A stretch of 64,000 nucleotides of DNA from Arcobacter sp. LA11 (GTDB lineage Bacteria > Campylobacterota > Campylobacteria > Campylobacterales > Arcobacteraceae): contig NZ_BDIR01000002.1 of assembly GCF_001895145.1 (NCBI RefSeq), forward strand, positions 186,001 through 250,000, read 5' to 3'. The translations under genes were made by a program, and so were the position numbers. The notes under the pieces were generated by a model, which worked only from the letters and a program-made list of their open reading frames with translations, was not told the DNA's origin and made no database searches. Of this stretch, positions 25,059 through 44,513 are shown piece by piece. Numbering within the stretch: position 1 is the stretch's first letter; every line of letters begins with the position of its first letter.

Positions 25059-26060
25059 TTAATTTATATATTTTTCTTCCCACTGTTTAAATTCATCACA
25101 AAAGTATTTGATTCTTACTTTTTTAAATTCTCTTGATGAATAAAGTGGCATATTTGATTTATAATCTATTTCTTTTGCAATATTATTAATCACTTCTTGA
25201 GTATCTTCTTTTGTCTTTCCATGAATCATTGTAAAAAGATTGTAGTTCCATGTAGGGTATTTAGGCCTTAAGTAACAATGAGATACTGCAGAAAAAGATG
25301 CTGCAACTTTTCCAATTTCTTCGCCTTTTGCTCCTTCTTCTATATCCCATACAACCATTGCATTTGCATTGAATCCTGCACGTCGATGATTAAGAATACA
25401 TGCAAATCTTCTCATTACTCCAGCTTCTTGAAATTCTTTTAATGTATTAAAAAACTCTTCATATGATATATTTAGTTTTTCAATTGTATCTTTAAAAGGT
25501 TCCGAAATGATTGCGATGTCATTTTGTGCTTCTTTTATAATGTCATAATGGAATTCATTTAAGACAAGTTCTTTAAAATCTTTTTTAGCTACTTTTTCTT
25601 TTTTTTCTTGTTTATTTGTTGTATCAAGTTTAACAGAGATTTTAAAAAGTTTTAATGTAGGTAAAATAATATAGTCTTTTGCATTTGTTAATTTTGATAA
25701 GATTTCAACTGTTTCTTCTAAGTTAGATTTTGAATTAGGTGCGATTGCTAAAGTAAACCAAATATTATAAGAGTGATTTCTTTCATAATTATGTGATATT
25801 CCAGGATGAGAATTTAAAATTGCTACAGCTGCATCAATATCTTTCTCTTCTATTTCAAATGCAACTAATGAAGACTTATATCCAAGCTTTTTTGTATCAA
25901 AAATAGCAGATGTTTGTCTTATAATATTATTCTTTTTTTCTTCTTTTAATATATTTAATACATTTTCTTCTGTAGTGTTTAATTCTTTTGCAATTTGTTC
26001 AAAAGGTTTCTTTGTAAGTGGAAAGTTTTTTTGAACTCTATATAGTATTTCATCTTTCAC
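25059..26060 (-). CDS. Siroheme decarboxylase, NirD/L-NirG/H (AhbA/B) fusion
   Basis: The 333-residue protein is two AsnC/Lrp-like units in tandem. Residues 1-155 hold one winged helix plus RAM-like domain (RQTSAIFDTKKLGYKSSLVAFE, in two parts), and residues 175-333 the second (RRFACILNHRRAGFNANAMVV; SHCYLRPKYPTWNYNLFTMIHG region). The LNHRRAGF and YPTWNYNLFT signatures are those of NirDLGH/AhbAB siroheme decarboxylases, not of amino-acid-sensing Lrp. It converts siroheme to 12,18-didecarboxysiroheme in heme d1 synthesis. A class II Fnr-type promoter lies just upstream, which fits this role and argues against a plain regulator. Confidence 0.82.
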   Translation of the reverse strand: MKDEILYRVQKNFPLTKKPFEQIAKELNTTEENVLNILKEEKKNNIIRQTSAIFDTKKLGYKSSLVAFEIEEKDIDAAVAILNSHPGISHNYERNHSYNIWFTLAIAPNSKSNLEETVEILSKLTNAKDYIILPTLKLFKISVKLDTTNKQEKKEKVAKKDFKELVLNEFHYDIIKEAQNDIAIISEPFKDTIEKLNISYEEFFNTLKEFQEAGVMRRFACILNHRRAGFNANAMVVWDIEEGAKGEEIGKVAASFSAVSHCYLRPKYPTWNYNLFTMIHGKTKEDTQEVINNIAKEIDYKSNMPLYSSREFKKVRIKYFCDEFKQWEEKYIN

Positions 26061-26339: not shown

Positions 26340-26933
26340 ATGTTTAATAAATTTGCAAAAGTCATACGTTGGTCAGTACTATTTGGGATGTTATATACTT
26401 TATATGTAATAACAATTAAAGAAGATATTGAATTTAAAGACCAAACTGATGAAAAAGTTTTAATGAGTTTGGCTAAAGATACTAATATAAATAAAGATAA
26501 ATATCTAATATATAAAAAACTTATAAATTTATATCCTGAAAATAAAGAACATAAAATTAACTTTGAAAAAATATTAAAAACTCAAGCAAATGGTTTACTT
26601 GACGCACATGAAAAAATGTTAATACCTATGCCAAAAGGTAATTATAAATATGTAAATAAAATAGAGTTTGGGAAAGATAAAAATAAAAATTATGTACTTA
26701 TATTAAATCTTTCAAAAATATTTGATGAGAAACTTGATAATAATACGAGGGAAACTTTAAAAAAGATGTTTAATATAACGCATAGAGGTATCTATGAGCA
26801 TTATGGATTTGATAATTCTTTTAAACTCTTATTAGTTCCCACTTTTGATTCAAAAGAAAATATAGAGATTATAAATCTTGGTAGAGTATATGAGGAAAAA
26901 CTTGAAGAAGTACCCAATAGACCTAATAGTTAA
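26340..26933 (+). CDS. Membrane-anchored protein of unknown function
   Basis: A 197-residue protein with one N-terminal membrane anchor (about residues 10-27) and a soluble extracytoplasmic domain rich in Lys/Asn. The C-terminal half has alternating strands (YVLILNLSKIFDEKL, SFKLLLVPTFDSK). No known motif or heme site. Its 3' end overlaps the convergent gene by four bases. It sits beside the NO-reductase-associated paralogs on the opposite strand. The ribosome site AAGAAAGAAG is seven bases upstream of the ATG. Confidence 0.6.
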   Translation: MFNKFAKVIRWSVLFGMLYTLYVITIKEDIEFKDQTDEKVLMSLAKDTNINKDKYLIYKKLINLYPENKEHKINFEKILKTQANGLLDAHEKMLIPMPKGNYKYVNKIEFGKDKNKNYVLILNLSKIFDEKLDNNTRETLKKMFNITHRGIYEHYGFDNSFKLLLVPTFDSKENIEIINLGRVYEEKLEEVPNRPNS

Positions 26934-27526
26934 TCTTTGTAAACTTCTTCATAAGTAAAGTATTTATTTTCTAGGCCAAGCTTTACATATCCTCTAACTT
27001 CTTTTTGTGTATTTATGTATTTGGTATGTTGATTTTTATGGTTCTTAGAAACTTTTATATATCCCCAAATTGACGCTATTAAAACAATTATAAATGAAAA
27101 ATAAACTCCATTTTCATTTGTTGTATATAAATCAGTAGAAACTCTTACCATATTATCAATAACATAAATAGAAGGAAGTGCTATAAATCCTGTCCATGCC
27201 ATATATATAAGTCTTTTTGAAGGAATTTCATACTCTTCACCATTTATTAAATAATCTAATTGTGAGTTTATCTTCTCTTTTATTTCTTTACTATGATTAT
27301 CTTCATTATCTTTTATATTTAAAGGTTTAATATGAATAGAAGACAATTCTCCCCATCTATTTAAGTCTTTATACTCTTTTATATAGTATGGATCATCTTT
27401 TACTAATTGTTCAATTTCTTCAAGCGTCGGTTTATTAGTATTTAGAGCCTTTTTTACATAATCTAAAATAGCATCATATTTACCATTACTTTTTATATCT
27501 TTTGCTACTTTCTTTATACTAACCAT
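26930..27526 (-). CDS. Two-segment membrane protein, paralog of the next gene upstream
   Basis: From the ATG at 27526 (AAGGGATTTAAT upstream) the protein has 198 residues. The N-terminal ~95 residues are cytoplasmic and charged, with EYKDLNRWGELSSIH; two membrane segments follow at about 110-130 and 140-160; the C terminus has NKYFTYEEVY. The same marks recur in the gene at 27528-28127, so the pair arose by tandem duplication. The longer frame to 27553 would run into that gene and is rejected. Function unknown. Confidence 0.65.
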   Translation of the reverse strand: MVSIKKVAKDIKSNGKYDAILDYVKKALNTNKPTLEEIEQLVKDDPYYIKEYKDLNRWGELSSIHIKPLNIKDNEDNHSKEIKEKINSQLDYLINGEEYEIPSKRLIYMAWTGFIALPSIYVIDNMVRVSTDLYTTNENGVYFSFIIVLIASIWGYIKVSKNHKNQHTKYINTQKEVRGYVKLGLENKYFTYEEVYKD

Positions 27527-27527
27527 A

Positions 27528-28127
27528 TTAAATCCCTTGGTAAAATTCTTCATGAGTAAAATACTTATTGTTTAATCCAATAGTTATCATTTCTCTAGTG
27601 TTTTTATGAAGTGTTTTATAGTTTGCATGTTGATCTTCATGATTTGTTTTGGCTTTTCTATATCCCCAGTACGTTAACCATAGAATTATTGCATAGGATA
27701 TATAAACAAGAGTACCATGTGTTGTATAGTATTCAGAAAACAATGCAATGATATTATGTGCCATAAATATAACCATAACTCCAACACTTCCAATCCAAAT
27801 AGAATAAGCAGAATTTTTTGAATTTACTTCAAAGTTTTCTAAGTTTTTTAGTTGTTGTACATTATCGTTTAATTTAGTCTTGAACTCTTTGATATCTTTT
27901 TCTTCATTTTCTTTTATTTCAAGATTTAAAGCATGAACCGAAGAGAGTTCTCCGTATCTATTTAATTCTTTATATTCCCAAATATAATACTCTTTTGTAT
28001 TTAAAAGATTTTCAATCTCTTCTAAAGAAGGATCTTCATTTTTTAACTCTTCTTGAACTTCTATGTATACTGTATTATACATCCCATCATATTTAAGTTG
28101 ATGAGCAACTTTTTTTATATTTACCAT
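27528..28127 (-). CDS. Two-segment membrane protein, paralog of the next gene downstream
   Basis: A 199-residue protein with the shared signature EYKELNRYGELSSVH at about residue 55, two membrane segments (about 110-130, 142-160) and the C-terminal NKYFTHEEFY. I do not recognise the family. It follows the gNOR-like subunit I gene by 80 bases containing a hairpin, so its expression may partly depend on the NO-reductase promoter. The ATG at 28127 has AGAGAAAAAG upstream. Confidence 0.65.
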   Translation of the reverse strand: MVNIKKVAHQLKYDGMYNTVYIEVQEELKNEDPSLEEIENLLNTKEYYIWEYKELNRYGELSSVHALNLEIKENEEKDIKEFKTKLNDNVQQLKNLENFEVNSKNSAYSIWIGSVGVMVIFMAHNIIALFSEYYTTHGTLVYISYAIILWLTYWGYRKAKTNHEDQHANYKTLHKNTREMITIGLNNKYFTHEEFYQGI

Positions 28128-28207: not shown

Positions 28208-29845
28208 TTATTCAGAAGCTGGTACTAAATCTTTTGTATCAATTTTTGAAGGTGTATAGATTCCTATAAGACCTTTAATTCCGATACTTAGAACAACATT
28301 TACTAAGAATACAGCCCAAGAAACAAGAATCATAGTTCCTGCAATTGCACCTAAAATCATATATAGATTATATTCTCCATCAACATAGATAGTTCTTCTT
28401 AAAGCTCCATCCATAGCAGCAAGTCCCATGAAACAACTCATTCCTAAAGCACCAAGTAGGTGTCCCCAAAAATGGATATCTGCAAGTTTTTGACTGTATA
28501 ACTTTACGTCATTAGTTAAAATTGGCCATAAAGTATAAATAGCTGCATATAAAGTCATTGTAAGACCAATCAAAATAGCTGCATGCACATGTGTAAATAT
28601 TATCCATTGCGTATTATGTAAAATTCTATTTAATCCCATATCTGCTTGTAAAATAGCAGCTGGAATAGCAATCATAAATCCCATAATACCAGCAAGTAAG
28701 AACTTCAATCTATTATCCATCTTAAGAGGTTTTGCACTCCATAATGTTACTAGAGTAATAAATACAGCGATACCTTGAGTTACAAGCTCAAATGCTGTTA
28801 CCATTTCTCCTGAAAGAAGTTTCATGATATTTGGTTGACCTTGATCTCCTAATAAGTGATGCGACCATACCATCCAAGAAACAATTAATTCTAAAAGTAA
28901 AGCAGCTCTTGCAATATTTTGCATAAACAGTTTTTTACCAGTAATCATCATAGCTAAGAGATACCAAGTACCTGCTACATAAATAAGTACAAGTCCATCA
29001 GCAATTAAATCTAACCCCCACCAGAAGAAGTTTTTATATAGTAATGCATTTACAGATGTGTAGTCCATTGCTGCACCACTTAAATCTCCAACAATATATA
29101 CTAAAATTAAAATACCACAAGTTAAGATTACCATTGCATCTAAAAATGTATCAATTGTTCCTCTAAAAATAGCAACAACAGGAAGTGATACTGCAGGCTC
29201 TTTTGCATATGGTTCTCGTCCAGTTATTTTATACCAAATATTTAACATACCATCAATACCAAGAGCAGACAAAATAAGAGGTTTTAAAGGTCTTTTTTCA
29301 TGTCCTTCTTCTGTATAGAATACAGTTGCGAAAGTATTATAAATAAATAATAGTGTTCCAATCATAATAATAGCAATACCAAGTACAAAAACAAGTCCTC
29401 CAATAGGATTAAATTGTTCAAAGTCAACAGGTAATGGCCAGTACAATGTATATAATGGAGCATAGTGATAAATAGCACCACCAAGCCACGACATTAATGT
29501 ACCAGTAGCAATAGACATCCAAGTGATATTTGCAATCTTAATACTGTATAAAGGCTTTTTCATTAAATAAGGTACTAAAAATGTAAAAGCACCAAATACA
29601 ATCAAATAAGTTGAACCAAAAATACCAACAATGGGGTGCACTGTCATAATTGAGAAATAATGATTCTCTTCAAAAAGACCTGGTGCAACACTATTTGCTC
29701 TCATTAGCTGACCTTCAAGAACAGCAAGTCCATAATAAAGTACACCAAAAACAACTGCTCTTAATGTAACTTTTTGCATAGGAGTTAGTCCATCAGTTTT
29801 TAATCCACCTTCTGTTCCGTTGATTAATGTATTAATAAAACTCAT
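28208..29845 (-). CDS. Heme-copper oxidoreductase subunit I, gNOR-like nitric oxide reductase
   Basis: The 545-residue protein has 12 or more membrane segments. The low-spin heme ligands appear as H70 (MTVHPIVG) and H421, and the high-spin heme ligand as H419 (FTHVHAAIL). H329-H330 (WSHH) are two of the usual metal-B ligands. The third, in the WWxxH position of helix VI, is D279 (FFWWGLDLIADG), and the usual cross-linked tyrosine position is D283. Oxygen reductases need that Tyr, so oxygen reduction is unlikely; a His-to-Asp metal-B site is a mark of the gNOR group described from Sulfurimonas. I infer NO reduction to N2O. It overlaps no gene and follows its cupredoxin subunit by 2 bases. Confidence 0.8.
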   Translation of the reverse strand: MSFINTLINGTEGGLKTDGLTPMQKVTLRAVVFGVLYYGLAVLEGQLMRANSVAPGLFEENHYFSIMTVHPIVGIFGSTYLIVFGAFTFLVPYLMKKPLYSIKIANITWMSIATGTLMSWLGGAIYHYAPLYTLYWPLPVDFEQFNPIGGLVFVLGIAIIMIGTLLFIYNTFATVFYTEEGHEKRPLKPLILSALGIDGMLNIWYKITGREPYAKEPAVSLPVVAIFRGTIDTFLDAMVILTCGILILVYIVGDLSGAAMDYTSVNALLYKNFFWWGLDLIADGLVLIYVAGTWYLLAMMITGKKLFMQNIARAALLLELIVSWMVWSHHLLGDQGQPNIMKLLSGEMVTAFELVTQGIAVFITLVTLWSAKPLKMDNRLKFLLAGIMGFMIAIPAAILQADMGLNRILHNTQWIIFTHVHAAILIGLTMTLYAAIYTLWPILTNDVKLYSQKLADIHFWGHLLGALGMSCFMGLAAMDGALRRTIYVDGEYNLYMILGAIAGTMILVSWAVFLVNVVLSIGIKGLIGIYTPSKIDTKDLVPASE

Positions 29846-29847
29846 AA

Positions 29848-30513
29848 CTAATTACCTCCTAACATTGATCGTGAATCATCCACATCACAACCTTTTACTA
29901 CAACAGCATTTTTAATAGTCATATGTCTACCACCTTTTGCTCCTGAATACTCTGTTGATCTAATATGATAAACTCCATTTTTATGGAATTGCCACATAAG
30001 GTCATTTCTACTTCCAGGATTTACTTGCATTTGTGTTACCATTGAACCATCTTGTCTAAATAAACCAAATCCATATGTTAAATCTTCACTCACTACATCA
30101 AATACAACATATTTACCACATTCAATTTCAAGCATTCCATCTGCATTTAACCTATCTTTAGGCAAGATAAATTTTTGTTCTCCATGATTTGGACTATTTC
30201 TATCTTTATTTTGTCTAGCAATGATGTTATACATCTGTTTAGACTTGTCAAAACTAGGATCTTTTTCAATCGTATGACGCTTAAAATCTGTCTCCACCCA
30301 AGGTATTTTATTAAATGTAAATATGTGAATACTTACACCTACAAAAATTAGTAAACCAACATATATATAAAATGTTCCAGGCTTAACAATTCTTGGTTTT
30401 CCTTTAGGATTAGATACTCCTTTTGCAAACCAATATATTAGACTTAGCACTGCAAATACATAAATTGTATAAACAATTTTTAATAAAGCTAAGACTCCAG
30501 CTGAATCTTCCAT
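29848..30513 (-). CDS. Cupredoxin-fold subunit II of the gNOR-like complex, CuA site lost
   Basis: The 221-residue protein has two N-terminal membrane segments (about residues 10-30 and 48-68) and a periplasmic cupredoxin domain. At the CuA loop the two cysteines are S186 and S190 (RSTEYSGAKGGRHM) and the upstream His is Y147 (DLTYGFGLF). So it cannot hold CuA and electrons must enter by another path. The first gene of the pair; the promoter lies in the gap at 30514-30945. Confidence 0.8.
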   Translation of the reverse strand: MEDSAGVLALLKIVYTIYVFAVLSLIYWFAKGVSNPKGKPRIVKPGTFYIYVGLLIFVGVSIHIFTFNKIPWVETDFKRHTIEKDPSFDKSKQMYNIIARQNKDRNSPNHGEQKFILPKDRLNADGMLEIECGKYVVFDVVSEDLTYGFGLFRQDGSMVTQMQVNPGSRNDLMWQFHKNGVYHIRSTEYSGAKGGRHMTIKNAVVVKGCDVDDSRSMLGGN

Positions 30514-30889: not shown

Positions 30890-30945
30890 TTTATAGTAAA
30901 TTAGTTTTTTTGATATACTTATAGGTTCTATTGAAAGGTTTTGTA

Positions 30946-31332
30946 TTGAGTGTTGAAGTATTGAAAAAACTTAATGTTTTATATGTAGAAGATGAAGAAG
31001 AGGTTAGTTGTGAAGTAATTCATAATTTAAAGTTTTTTGTTAATGATATAATTTCTTGTGAAAATGGACAAGAAGGTCTTGATGTATATATAAATGAAAA
31101 AGATAGCATAGATATTATTATAACAGATGTATTAATGCCTGTCTTAGATGGAAAAAAAATGGTAGATGAAATTAGAAAAATTAATCCTACAGTACCTGTT
31201 GTTTTCACAACTGCATTTAACAATTCAGAATTTTTAGAATACACTCAAACACAGGACTTAGTTGAAAATATATCAAAACCAATTGATTTAGAAGAATTAT
31301 TTCAGATTATAATAAAATTAATAAATAAATAA
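30946..31332 (+). CDS. Single-domain response regulator
   Basis: A stand-alone receiver of about 128 residues from the TTG at 30946 (GAAAGG seven bases upstream; a TTG at 30931 is less likely). Acidic pocket in LYVEDEEEV, phosphoacceptor D61 in IITDVLMPVLDG, and the Lys of SKPID near the C terminus. There is no output domain, so it acts by protein contact or as a phosphate sink. It lies 2 bases before the PilJ-type sensor kinase, which is its likely partner. Confidence 0.85.
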   Translation: MSVEVLKKLNVLYVEDEEEVSCEVIHNLKFFVNDIISCENGQEGLDVYINEKDSIDIIITDVLMPVLDGKKMVDEIRKINPTVPVVFTTAFNNSEFLEYTQTQDLVENISKPIDLEELFQIIIKLINK

Positions 31333-31334
31333 AT

Positions 31335-32660
31335 ATGTTTATATCTTTTTTTAATTCATTATCTTTTACTACAAGATATACTTTTGCTTTACTAATTATT
31401 GCTTTATTATCAACCTTAGCGTATTTCAATTTATCTAAATTAATAGAAGAGCAAGCAGATTATGGGAAAATCATAAATATAAGTGGTAAACAAAGAATGT
31501 TAACTCAAAGAATAGCCCTAAATGCAATCTATTATAAGACTAATAAATTATCAAGTTCTTTAGAAACAATGGAAGAAAGCCATAACTATTTAATATCTTT
31601 GCCTATGTCAGAGAAGTTATTTAATATGTATTATTCGAAACCAATTTATTTGGATAGAAGAGTAAAAGAGTTTTTTAAACATGCAAAAGAGTTCAAAGAT
31701 AATAGAAATGGGAAAAGTTTAACTTATATATTACAAAATTCTGAAAAATTACTTATAGATTTTGATAAAGTAGTATCTATTTATCAGAAAGAAGTTGAAG
31801 ACAAAACTTATACTCTAAGTAAAAGAGAATTGTTTATTTTGTTGTTTACTTTTTTTATTTTAATAAATGAAGCATTGTTTATTTTTAGACCTGCAAATAA
31901 TATGATTAATGCAAATAAAATAAAACTACTACAGCAATCAAGGTCATCTGCAATGGGTGAAATGATTGAAAATATTGCTCATCAATGGAGACAACCATTA
32001 AGTACTATAAGTACTATTGCAAGTGGTGCAAAGATAAGAAAAAAAATGAATATGATTGAAGATGATGAAATTATTGAATCCTATGAGAAAATTATAACGC
32101 ATACAAAACACTTATCAACAACAATAGATGATTTCAGGGGATTTTTTAAAGAAGATAATAAACAAACGATATTTAAGATTGAAGATGTTGTAAATCATTG
32201 TAAATCTTTAACTGAAGCTTCTTATAAAAGTAATAATATTGAATTAGTAGTTAAAGAAGAAGCTTCTAATTTAAAAATAGAAGGACGATTTGGTGAAATG
32301 TCGCAAGTAATTTTAAACATATTAAATAATGCAAAAGATGTATTAAAAGAAAAAGATTTAAGTCCTAAAATTGTGAATATAATATTAAAAGAAAAAAAGA
32401 ATAATTATGAAATACTTATTCAGGATAATGCTAATGGCGTTCCTGAAGATATTATAAATAAAATATTTGAACCTTATTTTACAACAAAACACAAATCTCA
32501 AGGCACAGGGATTGGACTTTTTATGAGTAAAGAAATTATTCATAAACATTTTAATGGTTATATAGAAGTTTCAAACCAAGAGTTTAAAGTTAATCAAAAA
32601 AATTATTATGGTGCATGTTTTAAAATTAAATTACCTATAAAAGAGTTTAAAACTACTTGA
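31335..32660 (+). CDS. Sensor histidine kinase with PilJ/NarX-type N-terminal sensory domain
   Basis: The 441-residue kinase has a membrane segment at about 15-32, a periplasmic type IV pilus MCP N-terminal (PilJ-like) domain with INISGKQRMLTQRIA (47-61), a second membrane segment at about 165-185, the H-box with H216 (NIAHQWRQPL), and an ATPase domain with N-box QVILNILNNAKD and G-box GTGIGLFMSKE. PilJ/NarX-type domains bind nitrate or nitrite in characterised cases, so a nitrate or nitrite sensor is a reasonable inference in this locus. Its stop codon overlaps the Fnr box of the next promoter. Confidence 0.88.
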   Translation: MFISFFNSLSFTTRYTFALLIIALLSTLAYFNLSKLIEEQADYGKIINISGKQRMLTQRIALNAIYYKTNKLSSSLETMEESHNYLISLPMSEKLFNMYYSKPIYLDRRVKEFFKHAKEFKDNRNGKSLTYILQNSEKLLIDFDKVVSIYQKEVEDKTYTLSKRELFILLFTFFILINEALFIFRPANNMINANKIKLLQQSRSSAMGEMIENIAHQWRQPLSTISTIASGAKIRKKMNMIEDDEIIESYEKIITHTKHLSTTIDDFRGFFKEDNKQTIFKIEDVVNHCKSLTEASYKSNNIELVVKEEASNLKIEGRFGEMSQVILNILNNAKDVLKEKDLSPKIVNIILKEKKNNYEILIQDNANGVPEDIINKIFEPYFTTKHKSQGTGIGLFMSKEIIHKHFNGYIEVSNQEFKVNQKNYYGACFKIKLPIKEFKTT

Positions 32661-32727: not shown

Positions 32728-33300
32728 ATGGCATATTTCCCTGCTTTTATAAAATTTGATAATAAAAAGATTTTAATTGTAGGTGGCGGTTATATTGCTT
32801 ATGAAAAATTAGAACATTTGTTAGACTTTACTAATAATATTACGCTTATTGCAAAAGATTATAATGAAAATACTGAAAAATTAATTAATGAGAATTCATT
32901 AGAATATTTTAAAAAACTTTATGTTGAAGGTGATATTAAGGGATTTGATATCATCATAGCAGCAGTTGATGATTTTAATCTTCAAGAATCGATATATAAA
33001 GAATCAAGAAACTATAACTGTTTATGTAATTGTGTTGATTTACAAAAGTATTGTGATTTTATTTTTCCTTCTTATGTAAAAAAAGGTGATTTGACAATTG
33101 CAGTATCAACTTCTGGTTCATCTCCAGCCATGGCAAAACATTTAAGAATATGGCTTAATAAAATGATTCCTGATTCAATTGTAGATTTTTTAAAACAGAT
33201 GAGAGAATATAGAAAAAATATACCAAAAGGAAAAGAAAGAATGCAGTTTTTAGATAAGAAAGCAAAAAATTATATTTCAACTTGGAAGGAAGAAAAATGA
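32728..33300 (+). CDS. Precorrin-2 dehydrogenase / sirohydrochlorin ferrochelatase (CysG-N, Met8p type)
   Basis: The 190-residue protein has a Rossmann fold (KKILIVGGGYIAYEKLE, residues 10-26) and the Met8p-family central segment NCVDLQKYCDFIFPS and TIAVSTSGSSPAMAKHLR. It oxidises precorrin-2 with NAD and inserts iron to give siroheme. In this locus it supplies siroheme for heme d1: SUMT (34418-35149) makes precorrin-2 and the decarboxylase fusion acts next. The downstream gene overlaps by four bases. Confidence 0.88.
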   Translation: MAYFPAFIKFDNKKILIVGGGYIAYEKLEHLLDFTNNITLIAKDYNENTEKLINENSLEYFKKLYVEGDIKGFDIIIAAVDDFNLQESIYKESRNYNCLCNCVDLQKYCDFIFPSYVKKGDLTIAVSTSGSSPAMAKHLRIWLNKMIPDSIVDFLKQMREYRKNIPKGKERMQFLDKKAKNYISTWKEEK

Positions 33301-33719: not shown

Positions 33720-33772
33720 TCAAAAAAATAATATAGTACATATTCAAGTATTTGTGAAAATCAGGAGTTTTG

Positions 33773-34405
33773 ATGAAAGTTAAATTAAAAGATGTTTTTT
33801 TATTTAAAGATTTATGCGATGATACAATATCGCAAATTGAAGAAATAACTACTCCTTTAAAATTATCGAAGGATAATATCCTTTTTTATGAAGGAGATGA
33901 ATCAAATTATCTTTATGTGCTTACAAAAGGTATTATAAAGTTATATAAGACAGCTTCAAACGATAAAGAAATTGTAATGAAGTACTTTCATCAAAATGAA
34001 TTAATTGCTGAGGTTGCTAACTTTGATAATATTCCTTATCCCGCAACTGCTCAGTGTTTTACAGATAGTGAATTACTTAGAATAGATTTTGAAAAATTAA
34101 AAGAGATAATATACTCAGATCCAGAATTGTCATTTGTAATTCAAACTTCGTTAATCAAAAAAATTAGAAATTTAGAAAAACTTGTATCTTTACATGTAGT
34201 ATTAGACTCAAAAGAGAGAATTGCAAAATATTTATGTGACCATACAGAAGATTTTTTTAATACAAAAAATATAATAATAGCTGAAATATTAAATATCTCA
34301 CCAGAGACTCTTTCTAGAATTTTAAGGGTATTTAAAAATGAAGGTTTAATAGATAGTAAAGCTAAAACTATCGATAAAGAAAAGTTAGAAAGCTTTTTTT
34401 CTTAA
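33773..34405 (+). CDS. Crp/Fnr-family regulator, Dnr/NnrR type
   Basis: From the ATG at 33773 (AGGAG five bases upstream) the protein has 210 residues: a cyclic-nucleotide-like beta roll (NILFYEGDESNYLYVLTKG), a dimer helix and a winged helix. The recognition helix has SPETLSRIL, giving the E-x-x-S-R pattern of Fnr that reads TTGAT half sites. The Fe-S cysteine cluster of Fnr is absent (only two scattered Cys), so it is likely a heme/NO-responsive Dnr or NnrR-type protein (inference). It lies among siroheme and nir genes with an Fnr-type box in its own promoter. Confidence 0.85.
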   Translation: MKVKLKDVFLFKDLCDDTISQIEEITTPLKLSKDNILFYEGDESNYLYVLTKGIIKLYKTASNDKEIVMKYFHQNELIAEVANFDNIPYPATAQCFTDSELLRIDFEKLKEIIYSDPELSFVIQTSLIKKIRNLEKLVSLHVVLDSKERIAKYLCDHTEDFFNTKNIIIAEILNISPETLSRILRVFKNEGLIDSKAKTIDKEKLESFFS

Positions 34406-34440
34406 CAAATTAAATGGTTATTTAAACCATTTAATTTGTT
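34404..34440. terminator. Bidirectional terminator between the crp-family gene and cobA
   Basis: Perfect 16-bp stem AACAAATTAAATGGTT / AACCATTTAATTTGTT; the right arm lies in the last codons of the minus-strand gene. Confidence 0.75.
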
Positions 34441-35149
34441 CTCTTAATTTAACTACTTCTCCCACAACTATAATTGCAGGTGTTGGTAATTCTTTTGAAT
34501 CTTCAACAATGTTTTCTAATGTTGAAACTACTACTTGTTGTTCCGGTGTAGAACCCTTTGAAATCACAGCACAGGGATAATCTCTAGCTTTACCTAATTC
34601 CATTAATTTATTTGTAATTAGTTTAATATTGTGGAATCCCATTAAAAATACGATTGTTTCATCATTTAAGAATGTTTGCCACTCTATTTGAGAGATTTTT
34701 TTATTAGGTGATTCATGTCCTGTTACAACTCTAAAAGATGTTGTAATACCTCTATGTGTTACTGGAATTCCAGCATATGCAGGAACTGAAACAGAAGATG
34801 TAATACCAGGAATGATTTCAAATTTAATATTTCTATCATATAAATAGATTGCTTCTTCTCCGCCCCTTCCAAATACAAAAGGATCTCCACCTTTTAATCT
34901 TACAACATTTTCATACTTTAGTGCAGCTTGATAAATTATTTCATTTATTTCATCTTGAGGAACAGAATGTTTTCCATCTTGCTTTCCTACATAAATCATT
35001 TCACAATCTTCTTGTGCCATATCTAAAATTTCTGGATTTGCTAATCTATCATAAATTAATACATCTGCTTCTTTTACAACTCTTGCAGCCTTTAAAGTCA
35101 TTAATTCAATATCACCAGGACCAGCTCCCGTTAAGTATACTTTTGCCAT
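34418..35149 (-). CDS. cobA: Uroporphyrinogen-III C-methyltransferase (SUMT, NirE/CobA)
   Basis: The 243-residue enzyme adds two methyls from S-adenosylmethionine to uroporphyrinogen III, giving precorrin-2. Signature VYLTGAGPGDIELMTLKAA at the start, VVRLKGGDPFVFGRGGEE in the middle, and VTHRG later. As the last gene of nirC-J-F-cobA it is best viewed as nirE for heme d1 supply. It is 3 bases downstream of nirF. Confidence 0.95.
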   Translation of the reverse strand: MAKVYLTGAGPGDIELMTLKAARVVKEADVLIYDRLANPEILDMAQEDCEMIYVGKQDGKHSVPQDEINEIIYQAALKYENVVRLKGGDPFVFGRGGEEAIYLYDRNIKFEIIPGITSSVSVPAYAGIPVTHRGITTSFRVVTGHESPNKKISQIEWQTFLNDETIVFLMGFHNIKLITNKLMELGKARDYPCAVISKGSTPEQQVVVSTLENIVEDSKELPTPAIIVVGEVVKLREQIKWFK

Positions 35150-35152
35150 TTT

Positions 35153-36247
35153 TTATTTTCCATCCTCGTATAAAAATATTCCTGAAGGTTTTTTAATATT
35201 TAAAATTTCTTTATTTAAAACCCATTTATTTGTATCTACAACAACTACTTTATTTGTATCATTAACTGAAACATATAGTTTTGGTGAAATATTAGACCAT
35301 CTAATATGTAGTACTTTTCCATCAAAAGTAAATGTTTTTATAATCTCTAATGTTTTAGTATCAATAATTTGAATTGTTGGAAAATCTTTTCCTGAATAAG
35401 TCACTGCTAAAAAATCTTTTTTTGGACTTAAGCTTGTAAATACTGGTAGACCTTGTGTTTCAATATTTCTTAAAAATTTAAAATTATCATCATAAACTAA
35501 AACCTTACTATCTCCAACTGCTGGAACAAATACTTTATCACCACCAATTGACCAGAATCCAAAATGAGGTACTTTAAGAACCATTTTTCGATCTTTATTT
35601 AAATATATTTTTATTTTTTTATAAGTCATTGTATCTAGATCAACAACTCCATAATGGCTAGATGTGAAGAATCCAGCAATATAGTTATTATCTTTAATCA
35701 TAGCATCAAAAGGAAGTTGTCCTACATCTTTGAACTCTTTGTATACTTCAAATTTAGCTTTTCCTTTTCCTTCATTCATATCTTTATAAACTGAGATAGT
35801 ATCGTTATCCATTTGTGAGAAAACTAAATAGTTTTTATAAATTTTAATACCGACATTTTTTGAACCAGTTTTTATTTTTTTGATTGGATTCAAGTCTCTA
35901 TCTAAAATATCTACACTTTTATCATCATAATTTGCTACTGCTACATAATTTTTTCCAATAACAAAACCAATTGCAGATTTTGAAGTTTTATATTCGTTTG
36001 ATATTTTTTCGCTTATTGGGTCAAATTTGATTACATAACCGTCTCTAGAGATTACATAACCATCTTTACCTTCAAATTTTACAACACCATGATTCATATT
36101 TCTCATATTTAAAATTCTTGTACTTTTTACATCATTCACTATTGTTGCAAGAGATGAATCTTCTCTTTCTACTACAAATATTTTTTCTTTTGCGTATACA
36201 GTACTTATTGCTATAACAGCAGCTAAAGCTAATTTAAAAATTTTCAT
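35153..36247 (-). CDS. nirF: Heme d1 biosynthesis protein NirF
   Basis: A 364-residue periplasmic propeller of the cytochrome d1 domain type with a signal peptide (residues 1-19, ending VYA) and no heme c site. It starts with FVVEREDSSLATIVND and has HGVVKFEGKDGYVISRDG. NirF acts as dehydrogenase in the last step of heme d1 assembly and interacts with NirN and NirS. Order and the absence of a CxxCH domain distinguish it from NirN. Confidence 0.85.
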   Translation of the reverse strand: MKIFKLALAAVIAISTVYAKEKIFVVEREDSSLATIVNDVKSTRILNMRNMNHGVVKFEGKDGYVISRDGYVIKFDPISEKISNEYKTSKSAIGFVIGKNYVAVANYDDKSVDILDRDLNPIKKIKTGSKNVGIKIYKNYLVFSQMDNDTISVYKDMNEGKGKAKFEVYKEFKDVGQLPFDAMIKDNNYIAGFFTSSHYGVVDLDTMTYKKIKIYLNKDRKMVLKVPHFGFWSIGGDKVFVPAVGDSKVLVYDDNFKFLRNIETQGLPVFTSLSPKKDFLAVTYSGKDFPTIQIIDTKTLEIIKTFTFDGKVLHIRWSNISPKLYVSVNDTNKVVVVDTNKWVLNKEILNIKKPSGIFLYEDGK

Positions 36248-36251
36248 TTTA

Positions 36252-37373
36252 TTATCTCCTAATTTCTTCTTGTGTTAAATAACATGATGGGTCTTCTTCC
36301 CATAAATCTCCAGTAATTGCATACGCTCTAGAACGTGAACCACCATTACAAATTTCAATATAGTCACATGTAGAACATTTACCTTTTATTTCCCTTGGGC
36401 TTTGTCTTAATTTAGTAAGTAACTCATTACTTGTAGAAGTCCATATCTCATCAAAAGGTGTTTCTAAATAGTTTCCAACGGTAAAAGGAAAAAACGGATC
36501 TGGTTTTACATTTCCTGCCCAATCCATATTTCCAAGTCTATTTCCAGCAGAATTTCCACCCCAAGATTTTAACTTACTTTCTAATAGTTCTACCTTATCA
36601 GGATACTCTTTTTTAAATCTATTTAGGAGTAAAATAGCATCCATTTCCATGTTTCCAGTTACAATATCTATATTACTATCATTTTTATAGTATTCAAATG
36701 CTTTATCAATTATAAACTCGACATATTCTCTTCTTTGTTCTTTAGAAATATCAATAGTTAAATTATCCTCACCACGTCCAGAATAAACTAGATGTGATAG
36801 ATATAGTTTATTTACATTTAATTCTTCACAAAGTTCAAACATCTTATAAAAACTGTCTTGAGTCTCTTTTGTAATTGTAAATCTAATACCTGCATTTCCC
36901 CCATGCTCTTGGATAAGTTTAATTGCAGCTATAGATTTTGCATAAGCACCTTTTTGACCTCTAAAATAGTCATGAACTTCTTCGATCCCATCTATAGAAA
37001 TACCAATGTAGTTAAAAGTATCAATAATTTTATCAACATTATTCTCTTTAATATACATACCATTAGTTGAAAGATATGTCATTATTCCATTGTCTTTCAT
37101 ACATTGTGCAATATCAAAAATATCACTTCTTAATAAAGGCTCTCCACCAGAGAAAATTACAAAGTTAACTCCACCAGTTTTTAATTTTTTAATAGTTTGT
37201 TGTATCTCTTCAAAGGTAAGTGTATCTTTTTCATTTGCATCGGCTTTACTATAACAATGATGACAAAGTAAATTACATCTATTTGTAAAATTCCAAATCA
37301 TAATAGAACCATTTAAAGTTCTAGATTTTTGTTCTTCTAATGTAGTCTTAATTAAATTAGACAATCTAAACAT
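36252..37373 (-). CDS. nirJ: Heme d1 biosynthesis radical SAM protein NirJ
   Basis: The 373-residue radical SAM protein has the cluster motif CNLLCHHC near residue 33-40 and a C-terminal SPASM-like Cys set (CSTCDYIEICNGG, then a final Cys). NirJ replaces propionate side chains on didecarboxysiroheme to make the oxo groups of heme d1. It sits between nirC and nirF without gaps. Confidence 0.93.
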   Translation of the reverse strand: MFRLSNLIKTTLEEQKSRTLNGSIMIWNFTNRCNLLCHHCYSKADANEKDTLTFEEIQQTIKKLKTGGVNFVIFSGGEPLLRSDIFDIAQCMKDNGIMTYLSTNGMYIKENNVDKIIDTFNYIGISIDGIEEVHDYFRGQKGAYAKSIAAIKLIQEHGGNAGIRFTITKETQDSFYKMFELCEELNVNKLYLSHLVYSGRGEDNLTIDISKEQRREYVEFIIDKAFEYYKNDSNIDIVTGNMEMDAILLLNRFKKEYPDKVELLESKLKSWGGNSAGNRLGNMDWAGNVKPDPFFPFTVGNYLETPFDEIWTSTSNELLTKLRQSPREIKGKCSTCDYIEICNGGSRSRAYAITGDLWEEDPSCYLTQEEIRR

Positions 37374-38025: not shown

Positions 38026-38832
38026 TTATTTTTTTATAATAGCTTCTTTTTTTAACTTATCTATTTTTTTACTAATTACCGATTGAAATTTTTTCATTTT
38101 GATTTTATTTTCTATTACAGGTTTAATTTGTTCTAACTCAACTGTATATGCTGGTTGTTTTCCATCTACAAAAACAATATGCCATCCATAGTTAGTTTTA
38201 ATTGGTTTTTTTGAATAAGAATTTTCACTAAGATTTTTTGCTTCTTCCCAAAAAGCTTCTAACATAGTTCCTTTTCCAAACCAACCTAAATCTCCACCTT
38301 TGGGTGCAGATGGTCCAATAGACTTGTTTTTTGCAAGTTCTATAAAAGTTTTTTGTACGTCTTTCGATGCATTAAGTTTTTTAATTAAAGCTTGCGCTTC
38401 TTCTTTTTTTTCTACAACAATATGTCTAGCTTTAACTTGTTCTTTTTTATCAAATTCGCTTTTGTTTTTGTCATAGTAGTCTTTTATTTCACTTTCTGAA
38501 ATTTGTAGATTTGCATAGTTGTTTTTCATCCATGTTTCTACAAGCATCTTACTTTTAAAACTATTTAAAGCTGCAAGATAAGAAGGATCATTTTCAATTC
38601 CTTCTTTTTTCGCATTTTGTTGTAATATTTTGTTTTCAATTGTTTGATTAATAATTAAATTTCTTTGTTCTTGTGGTAATTCTGAAAATGAACGTTGCTC
38701 TTTAAATGCTTTAAGCATTGCATTAATATCTTTAATAGTAATTGCTTCATTATTTACTGTTGCAAATACTTTTTGAGCGTAACTTTGTGTTGCTAAACCT
38801 AATAAAATTAATACTGTAAATAGTAGCTTCAT
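38026..38832 (-). CDS. PpiC-type peptidyl-prolyl isomerase in the nir cluster
   Basis: A 268-residue periplasmic foldase: signal peptide (1-19), an N-terminal SurA-like chaperone helix region, and a parvulin domain with KARHIVVEKKEEA and GPSAPKGGDLGWFGKGTM. It is similar in plan to the PEB4/CBF2-like protein at 56209-57033. Its start overlaps the nirN stop, so it is likely devoted to folding of NirN/NirS or other exported nir proteins (inference). Confidence 0.88.
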   Translation of the reverse strand: MKLLFTVLILLGLATQSYAQKVFATVNNEAITIKDINAMLKAFKEQRSFSELPQEQRNLIINQTIENKILQQNAKKEGIENDPSYLAALNSFKSKMLVETWMKNNYANLQISESEIKDYYDKNKSEFDKKEQVKARHIVVEKKEEAQALIKKLNASKDVQKTFIELAKNKSIGPSAPKGGDLGWFGKGTMLEAFWEEAKNLSENSYSKKPIKTNYGWHIVFVDGKQPAYTVELEQIKPVIENKIKMKKFQSVISKKIDKLKKEAIIKK

Positions 38833-40409
38833 TATTTATTTCCCTTTGCTTTTAAAAAATCATTTAAACTTTGTTGTTCATATTTAGTTAGTTTTACATT
38901 TTCACAAGGAAGTTTATTATTACATTTTTCTTCAAATATATCCCAACCAAACAATCTTGGATAAAACTCTCTATTTTTATTAATAAAATTATATTTTCCA
39001 ACAGGAATGTTAGCAGGATATGAAGCTAATTCTTTGAAAGTTTTAGTATCAATTACAACAATTGCTCCATCTTTTTCATAAATACTTAGATATGTATATT
39101 TCCCATCTCCACTATATTCTGTATGGATATATTGTTGACCTTTTCTAGGAACCATTTTTTTAATAGAGTAATCATCTTTATTAATTAAAACTAATTCATC
39201 ACTACCATTATCTGCCCAAAGATAAGGAGTAAAAGGATGTGTCTTAACAAAGAATCCATCTCCACCTATATTTACTTGTTTTTCAAATTTCCAGTCATAC
39301 ATTTTCCATACAGTTACATATGGTTTTCTAATATGAGGTGTTCCAAAATAAAAGTTACCATTATTGTACCAATATGTTGCAGAGAATAAATGAGGCATAC
39401 CTTCCATTTTATGTTCAAATACAGTTTCAAAGTTTTTTAAATCATAAACACTTAAAACTTTTCCACGTCTTGCAGTTCCAATTAAATAGTCTTCAAATGG
39501 ATCAATAAAAAAGTCTTCAATAGGTTCTTTAATTTTTGTATATGTAATATCAAATGTTTTTGTATCAACTTTTGCCATTAAAGGCTTATTTCTAAATGTA
39601 AAAATTGCTTCATCTTTTGAATAGAATTCATAAAGTGCAGATACTTTTCCATCAACTTCTGTGATTTTTTTAGGTTTCATTGTCATTGAATCAAGTACTA
39701 CCATTTGTTCTGGTAATAAACAAGTAGCAAAAACATTTTTACCATCTCTACTTAAAGAGACATTTCTTAGGTTAATACAAGTTCTAACTTTGTTCATCCT
39801 TTGACCAGTTTTTAATGAGTATCTTTGAACCCAACCATCTCTTGTGGGAACATAAATATTTTCTCCATCCATAGTGTATTTAATACCACCGTGAACATTA
39901 TCAAGAGGGAATTTACTTAAAATTCTAGTATCTTCCATAATCCAAACTTTATCACCATCTCTTTCAACTACTGGTAATACTTGTTCAATATCTTTTATAT
40001 CTAAAGGATTAACTGGGTCATTAAAAGGTGTAACTGAATTATTGATCTCTTTGTCTCCCCAAATAATCTTTTCTTTTATTGGAGATTTAATATATCTTGC
40101 TATTTGATTAAGTTGATATGGATTTAAAAATTCATATTTAGGCATAAGAGTTTGAGGAAACCCATTTTTGATTTTTGCAGCTAAATCTTTTTCTTTGTAT
40201 TTTCGTAAAAATTTTGGAATTAATGGTGGTCCATCTAAACCAATTCTTTTTTTATGATGACAATCTGCACAGTATTGATTATATAGTTCTTTTCCAACTT
40301 CTTTTTTAGGCAATGCTTCAACCATATGTCCTGCGGCACCATCTATTGCGTGAGCATTACATAAAAAAAGAGTTACTAAAAAAGATTTAATTAGGATTTT
40401 TGTTTTCAT
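38832..40409 (-). CDS. nirN: NirN-like cytochrome c / cytochrome d1-type protein
   Basis: The 525-residue protein has a signal peptide (about 1-22), a cytochrome c domain with CADCHH near residue 46, and a d1-type eight-blade propeller. NirN is the periplasmic dehydrogenase/carrier that finishes heme d1 and passes it to NirS. It differs from NirS by the shorter c domain and lack of the NirS linker. It follows nirS after a hairpin. Confidence 0.8.
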   Translation of the reverse strand: MKTKILIKSFLVTLFLCNAHAIDGAAGHMVEALPKKEVGKELYNQYCADCHHKKRIGLDGPPLIPKFLRKYKEKDLAAKIKNGFPQTLMPKYEFLNPYQLNQIARYIKSPIKEKIIWGDKEINNSVTPFNDPVNPLDIKDIEQVLPVVERDGDKVWIMEDTRILSKFPLDNVHGGIKYTMDGENIYVPTRDGWVQRYSLKTGQRMNKVRTCINLRNVSLSRDGKNVFATCLLPEQMVVLDSMTMKPKKITEVDGKVSALYEFYSKDEAIFTFRNKPLMAKVDTKTFDITYTKIKEPIEDFFIDPFEDYLIGTARRGKVLSVYDLKNFETVFEHKMEGMPHLFSATYWYNNGNFYFGTPHIRKPYVTVWKMYDWKFEKQVNIGGDGFFVKTHPFTPYLWADNGSDELVLINKDDYSIKKMVPRKGQQYIHTEYSGDGKYTYLSIYEKDGAIVVIDTKTFKELASYPANIPVGKYNFINKNREFYPRLFGWDIFEEKCNNKLPCENVKLTKYEQQSLNDFLKAKGNK

Positions 40410-40487: not shown

Positions 40488-42134
40488 TTAGTACGTATCT
40501 GTCATTGTGTTAGTTACGTTAAATTTACCTGTAGGAGTAATTAATCTTTTATCATCAATTACTGATTTTAATTTTAAAGTTTTTGAATCAAAAACTAAGA
40601 TTGGAGATGCTTTAAGTTTGTTCCCCCAAATTGAAGTCCATACTTCAGAACCGTCAGCATTGAATTCAAAGTGAACTGGTCCTCTAGATTTAACTTCTTT
40701 ACCATCAGCAGTAAATGCAGACGTTAAGTACTTAGCAGGGATTGGTAAAGTTTTAACAACCTCTAAAGTCTCTTTGTCAATTACGTAAAGCTGAGTTTGT
40801 AATTTTCTATCTGGATTAACTGGTCTATCAGCAAAAATGTATGGTGAATTTGGGTGACCTTTAATAAATAAGTTACCTCCACCTTTACCTGGTAATGCAA
40901 TTTTCTTAACTACTTTCCAAGCATTTTTAGCATGGTTTACAGGGTCAGTACCAATAAATACGATATCGTTAGAACCGATGTGACCTGTTCCCCAAATAGG
41001 ACCATATTGTTTAGAATCAACGTTTACACCTCTACCTGGGTGAGGCTTGTTACCTTGTGAAGGAATATTAGCTACTAATTTACCTTCTTTAGTATCAATA
41101 ACAGAGATAATATTTTTAGCATTTGCTGCTGTCATAAAGTATCTCTTAGATAAATCCCATCCACCATCGTGAAGGTATCTTTCTGCATCAACCATTGTAA
41201 TTTTTGGGTTTTTAACGTTTGAATAATCGTATAACCATACTTGACCTGTTTCTTTTACATTGATTACCCATTCAGGTTTATCATGTGATGCAATAATTGC
41301 AGCAACTCTAGCTTCTCTTGTATACTCTTGAGTATCATAAGTGTAACTTGCAGTTGAAACAATTTTTAAAGGTGCTAGTGTATCAGCATCTAAAGTAACA
41401 ATTGATGGTGGCCAGTAACAACCAACTACTGCATACTTATCTTTAAAGTCATGATGTTTAGAAGTATCGATTGCTCTTGCATCGTTACAAGTTCTAATCT
41501 CAGCAACGTTTTTAGGAACTTTCATCCATAAATCAATAACAGATGCTTTCCCATCTCTACCAATTACATACATGTATCTTCCAGATGCACCAGTTCTAGT
41601 AATGTGTGTTGCGAATCCAGATGGAACAACAGAAACTACGTCTTTAGTAACACCATCAACGATAGCAATTTGACCTACATCTCTTAAGATAACTGCAAAG
41701 TAATCTTTCCAGTTTTTAGCTTCAGGTGCTGTTGGTCTATCTTTAACTGGAATAAGAACCTTGTGAGATTTCTTCATATCAGCCATTGATTTTTCAGGTG
41801 GTTGTGGAGCTTTAACTTGAATATATTTAGCCATTAACTCAGTTTCTTCAGCAGTTAACTCACCAGTTTTACCCCAACCTGGCATTCCACCTGGTGTTCC
41901 GTTGTTAATGATATATTTTAAAGTTTCAGTACCCATCGATTTAGACTTTTCAGCTACTAAACTTGGTCCTAAAGCACCTTTTCTAAGCATACCGTGACAA
42001 CCAGCACATCTATCAAAATATACTTGAGTTGCTTTCTTCATTTCTGCTTCAGATAATTTAATCTCTGCACTTGCAGTCGACACCAATCCAATACAAGCAA
42101 TAGTTGCTAAACTTAATACTTTTGTCAATTTCAT
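40488..42134 (-). CDS. nirS: Cytochrome cd1 nitrite reductase NirS
   Basis: The 548-residue periplasmic enzyme reduces nitrite to nitric oxide. A signal peptide ends in STASA. The heme c site is CAGCH in YFDRCAGCHGMLRKGALGP. The d1 propeller shows RTCNDARAIDTSKHHDF and HDGGWDLSKRYF; the catalytic His pair of the d1 pocket is in TGHIGSND-type and HPGRG segments. Length is normal. It needs the heme d1 genes that flank it. No Fnr-type box was found directly upstream, so it may be read through from nor. Confidence 0.96.
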   Translation of the reverse strand: MKLTKVLSLATIACIGLVSTASAEIKLSEAEMKKATQVYFDRCAGCHGMLRKGALGPSLVAEKSKSMGTETLKYIINNGTPGGMPGWGKTGELTAEETELMAKYIQVKAPQPPEKSMADMKKSHKVLIPVKDRPTAPEAKNWKDYFAVILRDVGQIAIVDGVTKDVVSVVPSGFATHITRTGASGRYMYVIGRDGKASVIDLWMKVPKNVAEIRTCNDARAIDTSKHHDFKDKYAVVGCYWPPSIVTLDADTLAPLKIVSTASYTYDTQEYTREARVAAIIASHDKPEWVINVKETGQVWLYDYSNVKNPKITMVDAERYLHDGGWDLSKRYFMTAANAKNIISVIDTKEGKLVANIPSQGNKPHPGRGVNVDSKQYGPIWGTGHIGSNDIVFIGTDPVNHAKNAWKVVKKIALPGKGGGNLFIKGHPNSPYIFADRPVNPDRKLQTQLYVIDKETLEVVKTLPIPAKYLTSAFTADGKEVKSRGPVHFEFNADGSEVWTSIWGNKLKASPILVFDSKTLKLKSVIDDKRLITPTGKFNVTNTMTDTY

Positions 42135-42430: not shown

Positions 42431-43849
42431 TTATCTTTCGTGGATTGGATTCTTTGAAGTAGTTAATAAATCTTTTATTAAGAATATAAATCCTATAAAA
42501 GTTAATACTCCAGTTGCAAGTCTCCATCCCATACCTTGAACAAACCATACAAAGTCTTGAGATACAAAATATGCTTCCCATGTAGCACCCATTTGTGCTC
42601 TTTCTACTAGTACTTGTCCATATCCTGCAATAGTTAAAGAAACTGTCATCCCTAAAACACCAATAGTAATTAATGATATCGCCATTTTAGAATCAAAAGT
42701 AGCTCTTAATTTTGTAATACCATTTTTACCTTGAAGTCCCATATAGAACATTCCTATTAAAATTGTAGCATATGCTCCAAAGAATGCCAAGTGACCATGT
42801 GCAGAAGTAAACTGCGTACCGTGTGTATAAATATTTACTTGTGGTAATGTATGGAAGAATCCCCAAACACCAGCACCTAAGAAGTTACCAAATGCATTTG
42901 TAACAAACCATGCGAATGCAGGTGAGTTAGTCATCATTTTTTCTTCATTTTGACCTTCTTTAAGACCAGTTTCTTTACCCCAGTCATAAACTACGTGAAC
43001 GAACATTGCAACTAATGGAACAGGCTCTAATGCAGAGAATAAAGCTCCAATTTCCCACCAGTACTCAGGAGTACCAATCCAGAAATAGTGATGTCCTAAA
43101 CCTAAGATTCCAGATCCAAATAACATTGAAACTTCAATCCATAGCCACATTTCAACTACTTCTCTTCTAGCACCAATAATTTTGATTAATCCATAAGATA
43201 ATAAACAACCAACGAATACTTCCCAAGTTGCTTCAACCCATAAGTGAATTACCCACCACCACCAGTATTGATCCATAGAGATATTATCTGTAAAGAACAT
43301 ACCAGCAAGGTATAAACCTGCAAGTGCTAAAACATCTGCCATAAGTACCGTTACGATACCTGTTTGCTCACCTTTTAATGCTGTAGCAAATAGATTGAAT
43401 ACGAAAACAAGTACAACAACAACAATACCAATATCAGCCCATCTAGGAGCTTCAATATATTCTCTACCTTCATTAATTAACCAGATAGTAGATTCTGATG
43501 CTGGTCCAACTTGAACTAAGATATATACTAAAACAACAACTGTAACAGCCGCAGTTAAAATATAAAATGCTAATTTCCCAAGTTTGATACCAACTGTTTC
43601 AATTCCAGTTTCTTCAGGTAATAGGTAATATACAGAACCAATCATTGCATAAAGCATCCAAACAACTAGTGCATTAATATGTACCATTCTAGCAACAGAA
43701 AAATCAAAGATTTCAAAAAGAAAACTTGGATATAAGAATTGTGTTGCTGCAATAAGCCCCATTAATAATTGTGCACCAAATAAAACAGCAGCTACAAAAA
43801 AGTAGTTAATTGCTAATTTTTGAGATTCAAATTTTAAATTATTTGCCAT
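42431..43849 (-). CDS. norB: Nitric oxide reductase subunit B (cNOR type)
   Basis: The 472-residue 12-helix protein reduces NO to N2O with heme b, heme b3 and FeB. Seen ligands: H in VARMVHINALVVW, WWWVIHLWVEATWEVFVG (metal-B His plus the conserved Glu pair), GLGHHYFW (two metal-B His), and SAHGHLAFFG (heme His). Length and absence of a quinol extension mark the cytochrome c-dependent form. It overlaps norC by 11 bases. Confidence 0.97.
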   Translation of the reverse strand: MANNLKFESQKLAINYFFVAAVLFGAQLLMGLIAATQFLYPSFLFEIFDFSVARMVHINALVVWMLYAMIGSVYYLLPEETGIETVGIKLGKLAFYILTAAVTVVVLVYILVQVGPASESTIWLINEGREYIEAPRWADIGIVVVVLVFVFNLFATALKGEQTGIVTVLMADVLALAGLYLAGMFFTDNISMDQYWWWWVIHLWVEATWEVFVGCLLSYGLIKIIGARREVVEMWLWIEVSMLFGSGILGLGHHYFWIGTPEYWWEIGALFSALEPVPLVAMFVHVVYDWGKETGLKEGQNEEKMMTNSPAFAWFVTNAFGNFLGAGVWGFFHTLPQVNIYTHGTQFTSAHGHLAFFGAYATILIGMFYMGLQGKNGITKLRATFDSKMAISLITIGVLGMTVSLTIAGYGQVLVERAQMGATWEAYFVSQDFVWFVQGMGWRLATGVLTFIGFIFLIKDLLTTSKNPIHER

Positions 43850-44513
43850 GAATCGCTCCTGTTACACCATCAGTTGACATTCTTCCAAAGTTTCTTGGGA
43901 AACCGTTTGTATCAATAGATGACATATGTTTTAAAAATGCTACTAATCCCATAGCTTCTTTCTCAGTAATACCTAAGTTAGGCATCATTCTCTCATGTGT
44001 AGGGTATTGAGAAGGGAACTGTAAAAATTTAGACATAGCTTCTTCTTTAGTTTTTGAGTTTGTCATACCTAAGTATGGTCCATTTGGTCCCCATGCAGGA
44101 TCTAACCATGCTTTAGTTAAATCTGGAGCATAATAAGCACCATTACCAAGTAGTGTATGACAGTTCATACAGTTTTTAGCTTGAGAACCTAGTTTACCTA
44201 AGTGTAATAACTCTCTTGCTTCTTCTTCTGACCAATCATCTCTACCAAAGAATTTTTCTTTTTCACCAATAACTGGCACCTCATGACCTCTTTTATCAGA
44301 CATTTCGTAAGTAATTTTATAATTAATTACTGTTGGTCCTGGTACTCTTTTAGTAATACCATTTTTAAGATCTGCATCTGTTCCCATAGCTATTTGACCC
44401 ATGGTATCAAATGTAAGCCATATTAATAACATCGCTGCAAAACCAGTTACCCAACCTGCTGACCTTCGCCAGAAAGGGATACTAGTCCATACTGAAACAG
44501 TTTTTTTTGACAC
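43839..44513 (-). CDS. norC: Nitric oxide reductase cytochrome c subunit C
   Basis: The 224-residue membrane-anchored cytochrome c has one N-terminal span (about 17-40) and a heme c motif CMNCH in KNCMNCHTLLGNGAYYAPD; axial Met likely in ERMMPNLGIT. It passes electrons to NorB. The gene lies 15 bases after the small membrane gene that leads the operon. It is longer than typical NorC (about 150) because of a 60-residue insert before the heme. Confidence 0.95.
   Translation of the reverse strand: MSKKTVSVWTSIPFWRRSAGWVTGFAAMLLIWLTFDTMGQIAMGTDADLKNGITKRVPGPTVINYKITYEMSDKRGHEVPVIGEKEKFFGRDDWSEEEARELLHLGKLGSQAKNCMNCHTLLGNGAYYAPDLTKAWLDPAWGPNGPYLGMTNSKTKEEAMSKFLQFPSQYPTHERMMPNLGITEKEAMGLVAFLKHMSSIDTNGFPRNFGRMSTDGVTGAIHGK

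Follow-up and report, generated by a model that had tools for sequence, protein, structure and literature searches.

The gNOR type of NO reductase, encoded by norGH, was put forward earlier in Sulfurimonas, Sulfurovum, Persephonella and Methylomirabilis (Sievert 2008, Hemp and Gennis 2008 and Murali 2024, as cited by other authors), whose enzymes share two subunits, an Asp in the active site and a cupredoxin subunit II. The active-site Asp and the two subunits with a cupredoxin also appear under gNOR in a tabulation of the NO reductases (PMC8756737). Quinol has been given as the electron donor (PMC8906906) and a relationship to the B family has been reported (PMC11388526). In the accessible portion of the literature citing the primary gNOR work we found no report of a measured activity. 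N2O is a greenhouse gas and, to our knowledge, gNOR is one of several proposed N2O sources lacking an assay to date.

The window analyzed here is a stretch of 64,000 nt from Arcobacter sp. LA11; the gene pair under study and its surroundings are listed in Table 1. Both reading frames start with ATG, are separated by 2 bases and are correct as given in the preliminary description of this DNA, in which all the named residues also stand at their proper positions. Judged by its sequence the pair is a gNOR, a known but little-studied kind of enzyme, and a normal member of it: the proteins are 62-87% identical to homologues on contigs labelled Sulfurimonas or Sulfurovum, and the pair shows no essential difference from the described norGH, although the gene downstream of it, F3, is present here in two copies. 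Subunit I matched the Pfam family COX1 (E 1.9e-47). Subunit II was assigned to no Pfam family and matched CuA domains weakly; its AlphaFold2 model (pLDDT 84.9) consists of two helices and a beta domain, and the best Foldseek matches of this model were oxidase subunits II. The two-subunit organization with a cupredoxin fold replacing the heme c subunit is therefore present. General libraries offer only weak oxidase names for subunit I and leave subunit II almost unnamed, so that gNOR is easily missed in annotation. A BLAST-like match between subunit II and NosZ was rejected as an indication of function, as it reflects the shared cupredoxin fold.

Table 1 Features of the gNOR locus and its neighbourhood in the window
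Feature	Coordinates	Strand	Remarks
Siroheme decarboxylase, NirDL-like (heme d1 synthesis)	25059-26060	-	context
F3, second copy	26930-27553	-	207 aa; 43% identical to first copy
F3, first copy, unnamed membrane protein	27528-28127	-	199 aa; conserved as the next gene after that of gNOR subunit I
gNOR subunit I (norG-like), catalytic heme-copper subunit	28208-29845	-	545 aa; D279, D283, E353; H70, H329, H330, H419, H421 retained
gNOR subunit II (norH-like)	29848-30513	-	221 aa; two N-terminal helices and cupredoxin domain, CuA ligands replaced (Y147, S186, S190)
Precorrin-2 dehydrogenase-like (siroheme synthesis)	32728-33300	+	context
Crp/FNR-family regulator	33770-34405	+	context
Tetrapyrrole methylase	34418-35149	-	context
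NirF-like cd1 propeller	35153-36247	-	context
NirJ-like radical SAM	36252-37373	-	context
Cytochrome c/d1 protein, NirN-like or NirS-like	38832-40409	-	context
NirS, cytochrome c/d1	40488-42134	-	context
Standard cNOR NorB	42431-43849	-	context
Standard cNOR NorC	43839-44513	-	context

When subunit I was aligned with 26 other heme-copper subunits (MAFFT), D279 fell in the column of the helix VI metal-B His, which is kept in all 26, and D283, the Asp that in gNOR takes the place of the active-site Tyr of oxidases, in a column occupied by Tyr in A and B oxidases and by Glu in cNOR and qNOR. The same pairing was obtained by profile-profile comparison (hhalign) with a profile of seven NORs, in which NorB H202 corresponds to D279 and NorB E206 to D283. 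The preliminary description had placed these two residues at the His of the helix VI WWxxH motif and at the tyrosine position, with H70, H329, H330, H419 and H421 remaining; both alignments agree with this placement, and the two Asp and the five His are invariant in 86/86 subunit I sequences (the window and 85 Campylobacterota loci). The loss of the CuA ligands that it reported is equally general, as in 84/84 subunit II sequences the CuA His position is Tyr (Y147), the first Cys position (186) is Ser or Thr and the second (190) is Ser or Ala. Conservation across 86 and 84 sequences, respectively, excludes chance as the source of the D279/D283 and CuA substitutions and makes the window copy a typical family member.

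A further invariant residue, E353 of helix VIII, paired with NorB E275 in both the MAFFT and the hhalign alignments (TAFE with SALE), and its column holds no acid in the aligned A, B and C oxidases. Acids thus occur in gNOR at both carboxylate positions of NorB, D283 for Glu211 and E353 for Glu280. In Pseudomonas aeruginosa NorB, both activity and the uptake of protons depend critically on Glu280 and Glu211 (PMC3431322; see also PMC6713497). No earlier statement of the E353/Glu280 match was found in the accessible portion of the literature citing the primary gNOR work, and E353 as a putative second carboxylate is an addition of the present analysis. The AlphaFold model is of low confidence in the metal-site region (pLDDT 52-57 around residues 261-290), too low for the geometry of the site, which was discarded.

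Phylogenetic position was assessed in a tree of 48 sequences (IQ-TREE, LG+C20+F+G4) rooted at the midpoint only, with references drawn from plasmids and from the window genome; among them eNOR, sNOR and nNOR were represented by no more than two Gln-type proteins, and gNOR of Persephonella or Methylomirabilis was absent. The gNOR proteins, including those from the Sulfurimonas- and Sulfurovum-labelled contigs, formed a single clade on a long branch (100/100), separate from each of the cNOR, qNOR, cbb3, A and B groups. The gNOR identity proposed in the preliminary description is supported, and the outcome it had named as contrary, a place inside an oxygen-reductase clade, was not found. The clade attaches beside A and B (97/97 for the whole group; the exact partner is unsure, 90/72), and profile scores of gNOR reached 1e-22 to A and to B as against 2e-6 to NOR; therefore gNOR, if an NO reductase, is probably of other than NorB descent. 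Members of cNOR and qNOR hold the non-heme iron by three His and one Glu and belong to the NorB clade, whereas gNOR has D279/D283 and lies outside that clade at 100/100. Likewise it lies outside the A, B and C oxygen reductases, which have the helix VI His and, in A and B, a Tyr at i+4. With cNOR and qNOR it shares the heme-copper fold, the heme and His-His ligands and acidic residues at the sites of Glu211 and Glu280; it differs from them in lacking the helix VI His, in having Asp for Glu211 and in having a cupredoxin in place of the c-heme subunit. The fold search was uninformative for the distinction between oxidase and NOR, as cbb3, aa3 and cNOR all gave Z of about 28-32.

The gNOR pair is flanked on one side by a siroheme decarboxylase gene and on the other by heme d1 and regulator genes together with nirS and norBC. 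The distance of 14 kb to NorCB in the preliminary description is right from centre to centre; end to end it is about 12 kb. The host genome contains nosZ on another contig and three COX1-family genes, which are those of cbb3, norB and gNOR. In this setting, that of a denitrifying member of the Campylobacterota, gNOR very probably converts 2 NO into N2O, acting alongside NirS, cNOR and NosZ. Subunit I would bind a pair of hemes. Next to the high-spin one, H329, H330 and D279 would coordinate a non-heme metal, probably iron, and D283 and E353 would occupy the sites of Glu211 and Glu280 of NorB; the quinol pool would probably be the source of electrons. From sequence, residue conservation, tree position, gene neighbourhood and co-occurrence we infer NO as the substrate, the identity of the metal, the geometry of its ligands and quinol as the donor. 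NO reduction is supported by the match of E353 to NorB Glu280, the nir/nor cluster together with nosZ, the co-occurrence of gNOR and cNOR, and the gene content of one genome, G175, described below. Points counted against it are the low-confidence metal site in the model, two gNOR genomes (G058 and G189) with neither a NosZ nor a cd1 match, and a partial match to the quinol site of bo3 oxidase.

The gNOR family was found in 46 of about 398 Campylobacterota genomes, a count made after removal of four weak matches to other proteins, and in 0/15 other genomes of the host genus; this patchy spread suggests gain and loss. Plasmids contained no gNOR, the heme-copper proteins found on them being less than 30% identical. 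A close NorB is encoded in 40/46 gNOR genomes as against 33/352 others; since these genomes are related to one another, a p-value for this contrast should not be taken at face value. The preliminary description had concluded that the cell has two unlike NO reductases: cNOR and gNOR are indeed both present, but the combination is common in this phylum. In the other six gNOR genomes no cNOR or qNOR match was obtained, the search having covered the heme-copper family and the assemblies consisting of up to 170 contigs, for which reason the absence of a gene from them is no proof. In G175 (99% complete; loci L133 and L135) gNOR is the only COX1-family gene, with no cNOR, qNOR or cbb3 match, and is accompanied by NosZ and by a cd1 protein of 569 aa that includes a c-heme domain and matched NirS best among solved proteins (E 4.6e-40). 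G387 has cbb3 and gNOR as its only heme-copper enzymes and also encodes NosZ and a cd1 protein; in G268 and G310 NosZ is present and no cd1 protein was detected. gNOR thus seems to be the sole NOR in some genomes (G175, G387), and where NirS and NosZ occur with gNOR as the only NOR candidate its function could be tested by deletion.

The same NO chemistry might serve detoxification and not respiration, gNOR limiting the NO level at times of cNOR saturation or inactivity and using quinol with no conservation of energy. The presence of gNOR alongside cNOR in most of its genomes would fit such a role, as would its occurrence in the two genomes with neither NosZ nor cd1 matches, the lack of a proton channel in its tabulated description (PMC8756737) and its designation as non-electrogenic (PMC8906906). 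We nevertheless consider it less likely than not, since in G175 and G387 the NirS-NosZ pathway seems to lack any NOR but this one and the window gNOR is sited among nir and nor genes.

A second alternative is an oxygen reductase that is fed by quinol and has a modified active site. Subunit II lacks CuA and neither subunit contains a c-type heme, so the quinol pool is the probable electron source. E44, R49 and H62 of subunit I are invariant and align with the positions of D75, R80 and H98 of CyoB, whereas CyoB R71 and Q101 are unmatched; the quinol-site residues are therefore matched in part only. The bo3-type quinol oxidases (CyoAB) likewise have a subunit II cupredoxin without CuA and reduce O2. 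CuA loss consequently bears on electron entry and does not discriminate between NO and O2 chemistry, and that half of the preliminary argument, in which both losses together spoke for NO, is weak; its conclusion is upheld through the acids at both NorB Glu positions, the nir/nor neighbourhood and G175. The shared absence of CuA in quinol oxidases, the profile scores that favour A and B oxidases over cNOR and qNOR, and the match of E44 and H62 to two CyoB quinol-site positions speak for such an oxygen reductase. It is highly improbable all the same, as gNOR has neither the helix VI His nor the Tyr found in all A and B oxidases of the set, differs from bo3 in lying outside the A-family clade, forms a clade of its own, bears the two acids and is associated with denitrification genes. 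An NO dismutase (yielding N2 and O2) or a reductase of another nitrogen oxide is hardly credible, for although Methylomirabilis has both gNOR and putative NO dismutases, these are listed apart from gNOR (PMC6094997), and the host genome has NosZ, a user of N2O.

The enzyme kind itself being already known, the present analysis adds E353, the genomes with gNOR as seemingly the sole NOR, and F3. The latter two, that is genomes in which gNOR is seemingly the only such enzyme and a conserved unnamed third gene, are the less expected points. The F3 family comprises proteins of about 200 aa with hydrophobic stretches, in which Y17, Y52, N87 and E97 are invariant (48 sequences). In 76/88 loci F3 is the gene after subunit I, in the same orientation, and it is absent from only two of the loci with enough sequence. 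It was detected in 38/397 Campylobacterota genomes, all 38 of which have gNOR; eight gNOR genomes have no F3, and in two of the eight the gNOR genes are fragmented. F3 is clearly associated with gNOR. Its NCBIfam matches (MAG1210 and others) were weak and taken as chance, and no description of such a protein as a component of any NO reductase was found. We tentatively propose, with slightly more doubt than conviction, that F3 is a dedicated third component of gNOR, a subunit or an assembly factor, and that some Campylobacterota (G175, G387) rely on gNOR, with its His2-Asp-type metal site, as their only respiratory NO reductase. F3 may serve as a marker gene for gNOR and may be a missing part for expression of the complex. 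In 52 loci (e.g. L135:6661-7194 and L004:3869-4417), but not in the window, F3 is succeeded by a fourth gene, whose product has about 170 aa and a YcxB-like domain.

Sites of the FNR type (TTGACNNNNGTCAA) gave 36 matches versus 34 expected, none near the operon having fewer than two mismatches, and were rejected as a sign of anaerobic control. The promoter scan gave fewer matches than expected by chance, and no Rfam match was obtained in the window. On the far side of an AT-rich gap from gNOR, and oriented away from it, lie genes (30931-32660, +) for a response regulator and a histidine kinase, the latter containing a PilJ-like sensor region; at a guess they might sense nitrate or nitrite. Among related denitrifiers there are two types of cd1 nitrite reductase, only about 30% identical to each other (window 40488-42134 compared with G229:C5:325768-327060); the window genome and G023 have one type, whereas G229, G175 and G387 have the other.

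Two plasmid-borne heme-copper subunits with Gln replacing the Tyr were found in Thermus and Defluviimonas (L117:1692-3374 and L118:1665-3395). They resemble gNOR in belonging to two-subunit heme-copper systems lacking the oxidase Tyr, and differ from it in keeping the helix VI His, in having the Gln and in grouping with the B family (100/99). They are possibly eNOR-like, a label taken from the Gln alone. The gene of the Thermus plasmid adjoins Rrf2 and DUF542 genes, and in the L117 protein Lys takes the place of H421.
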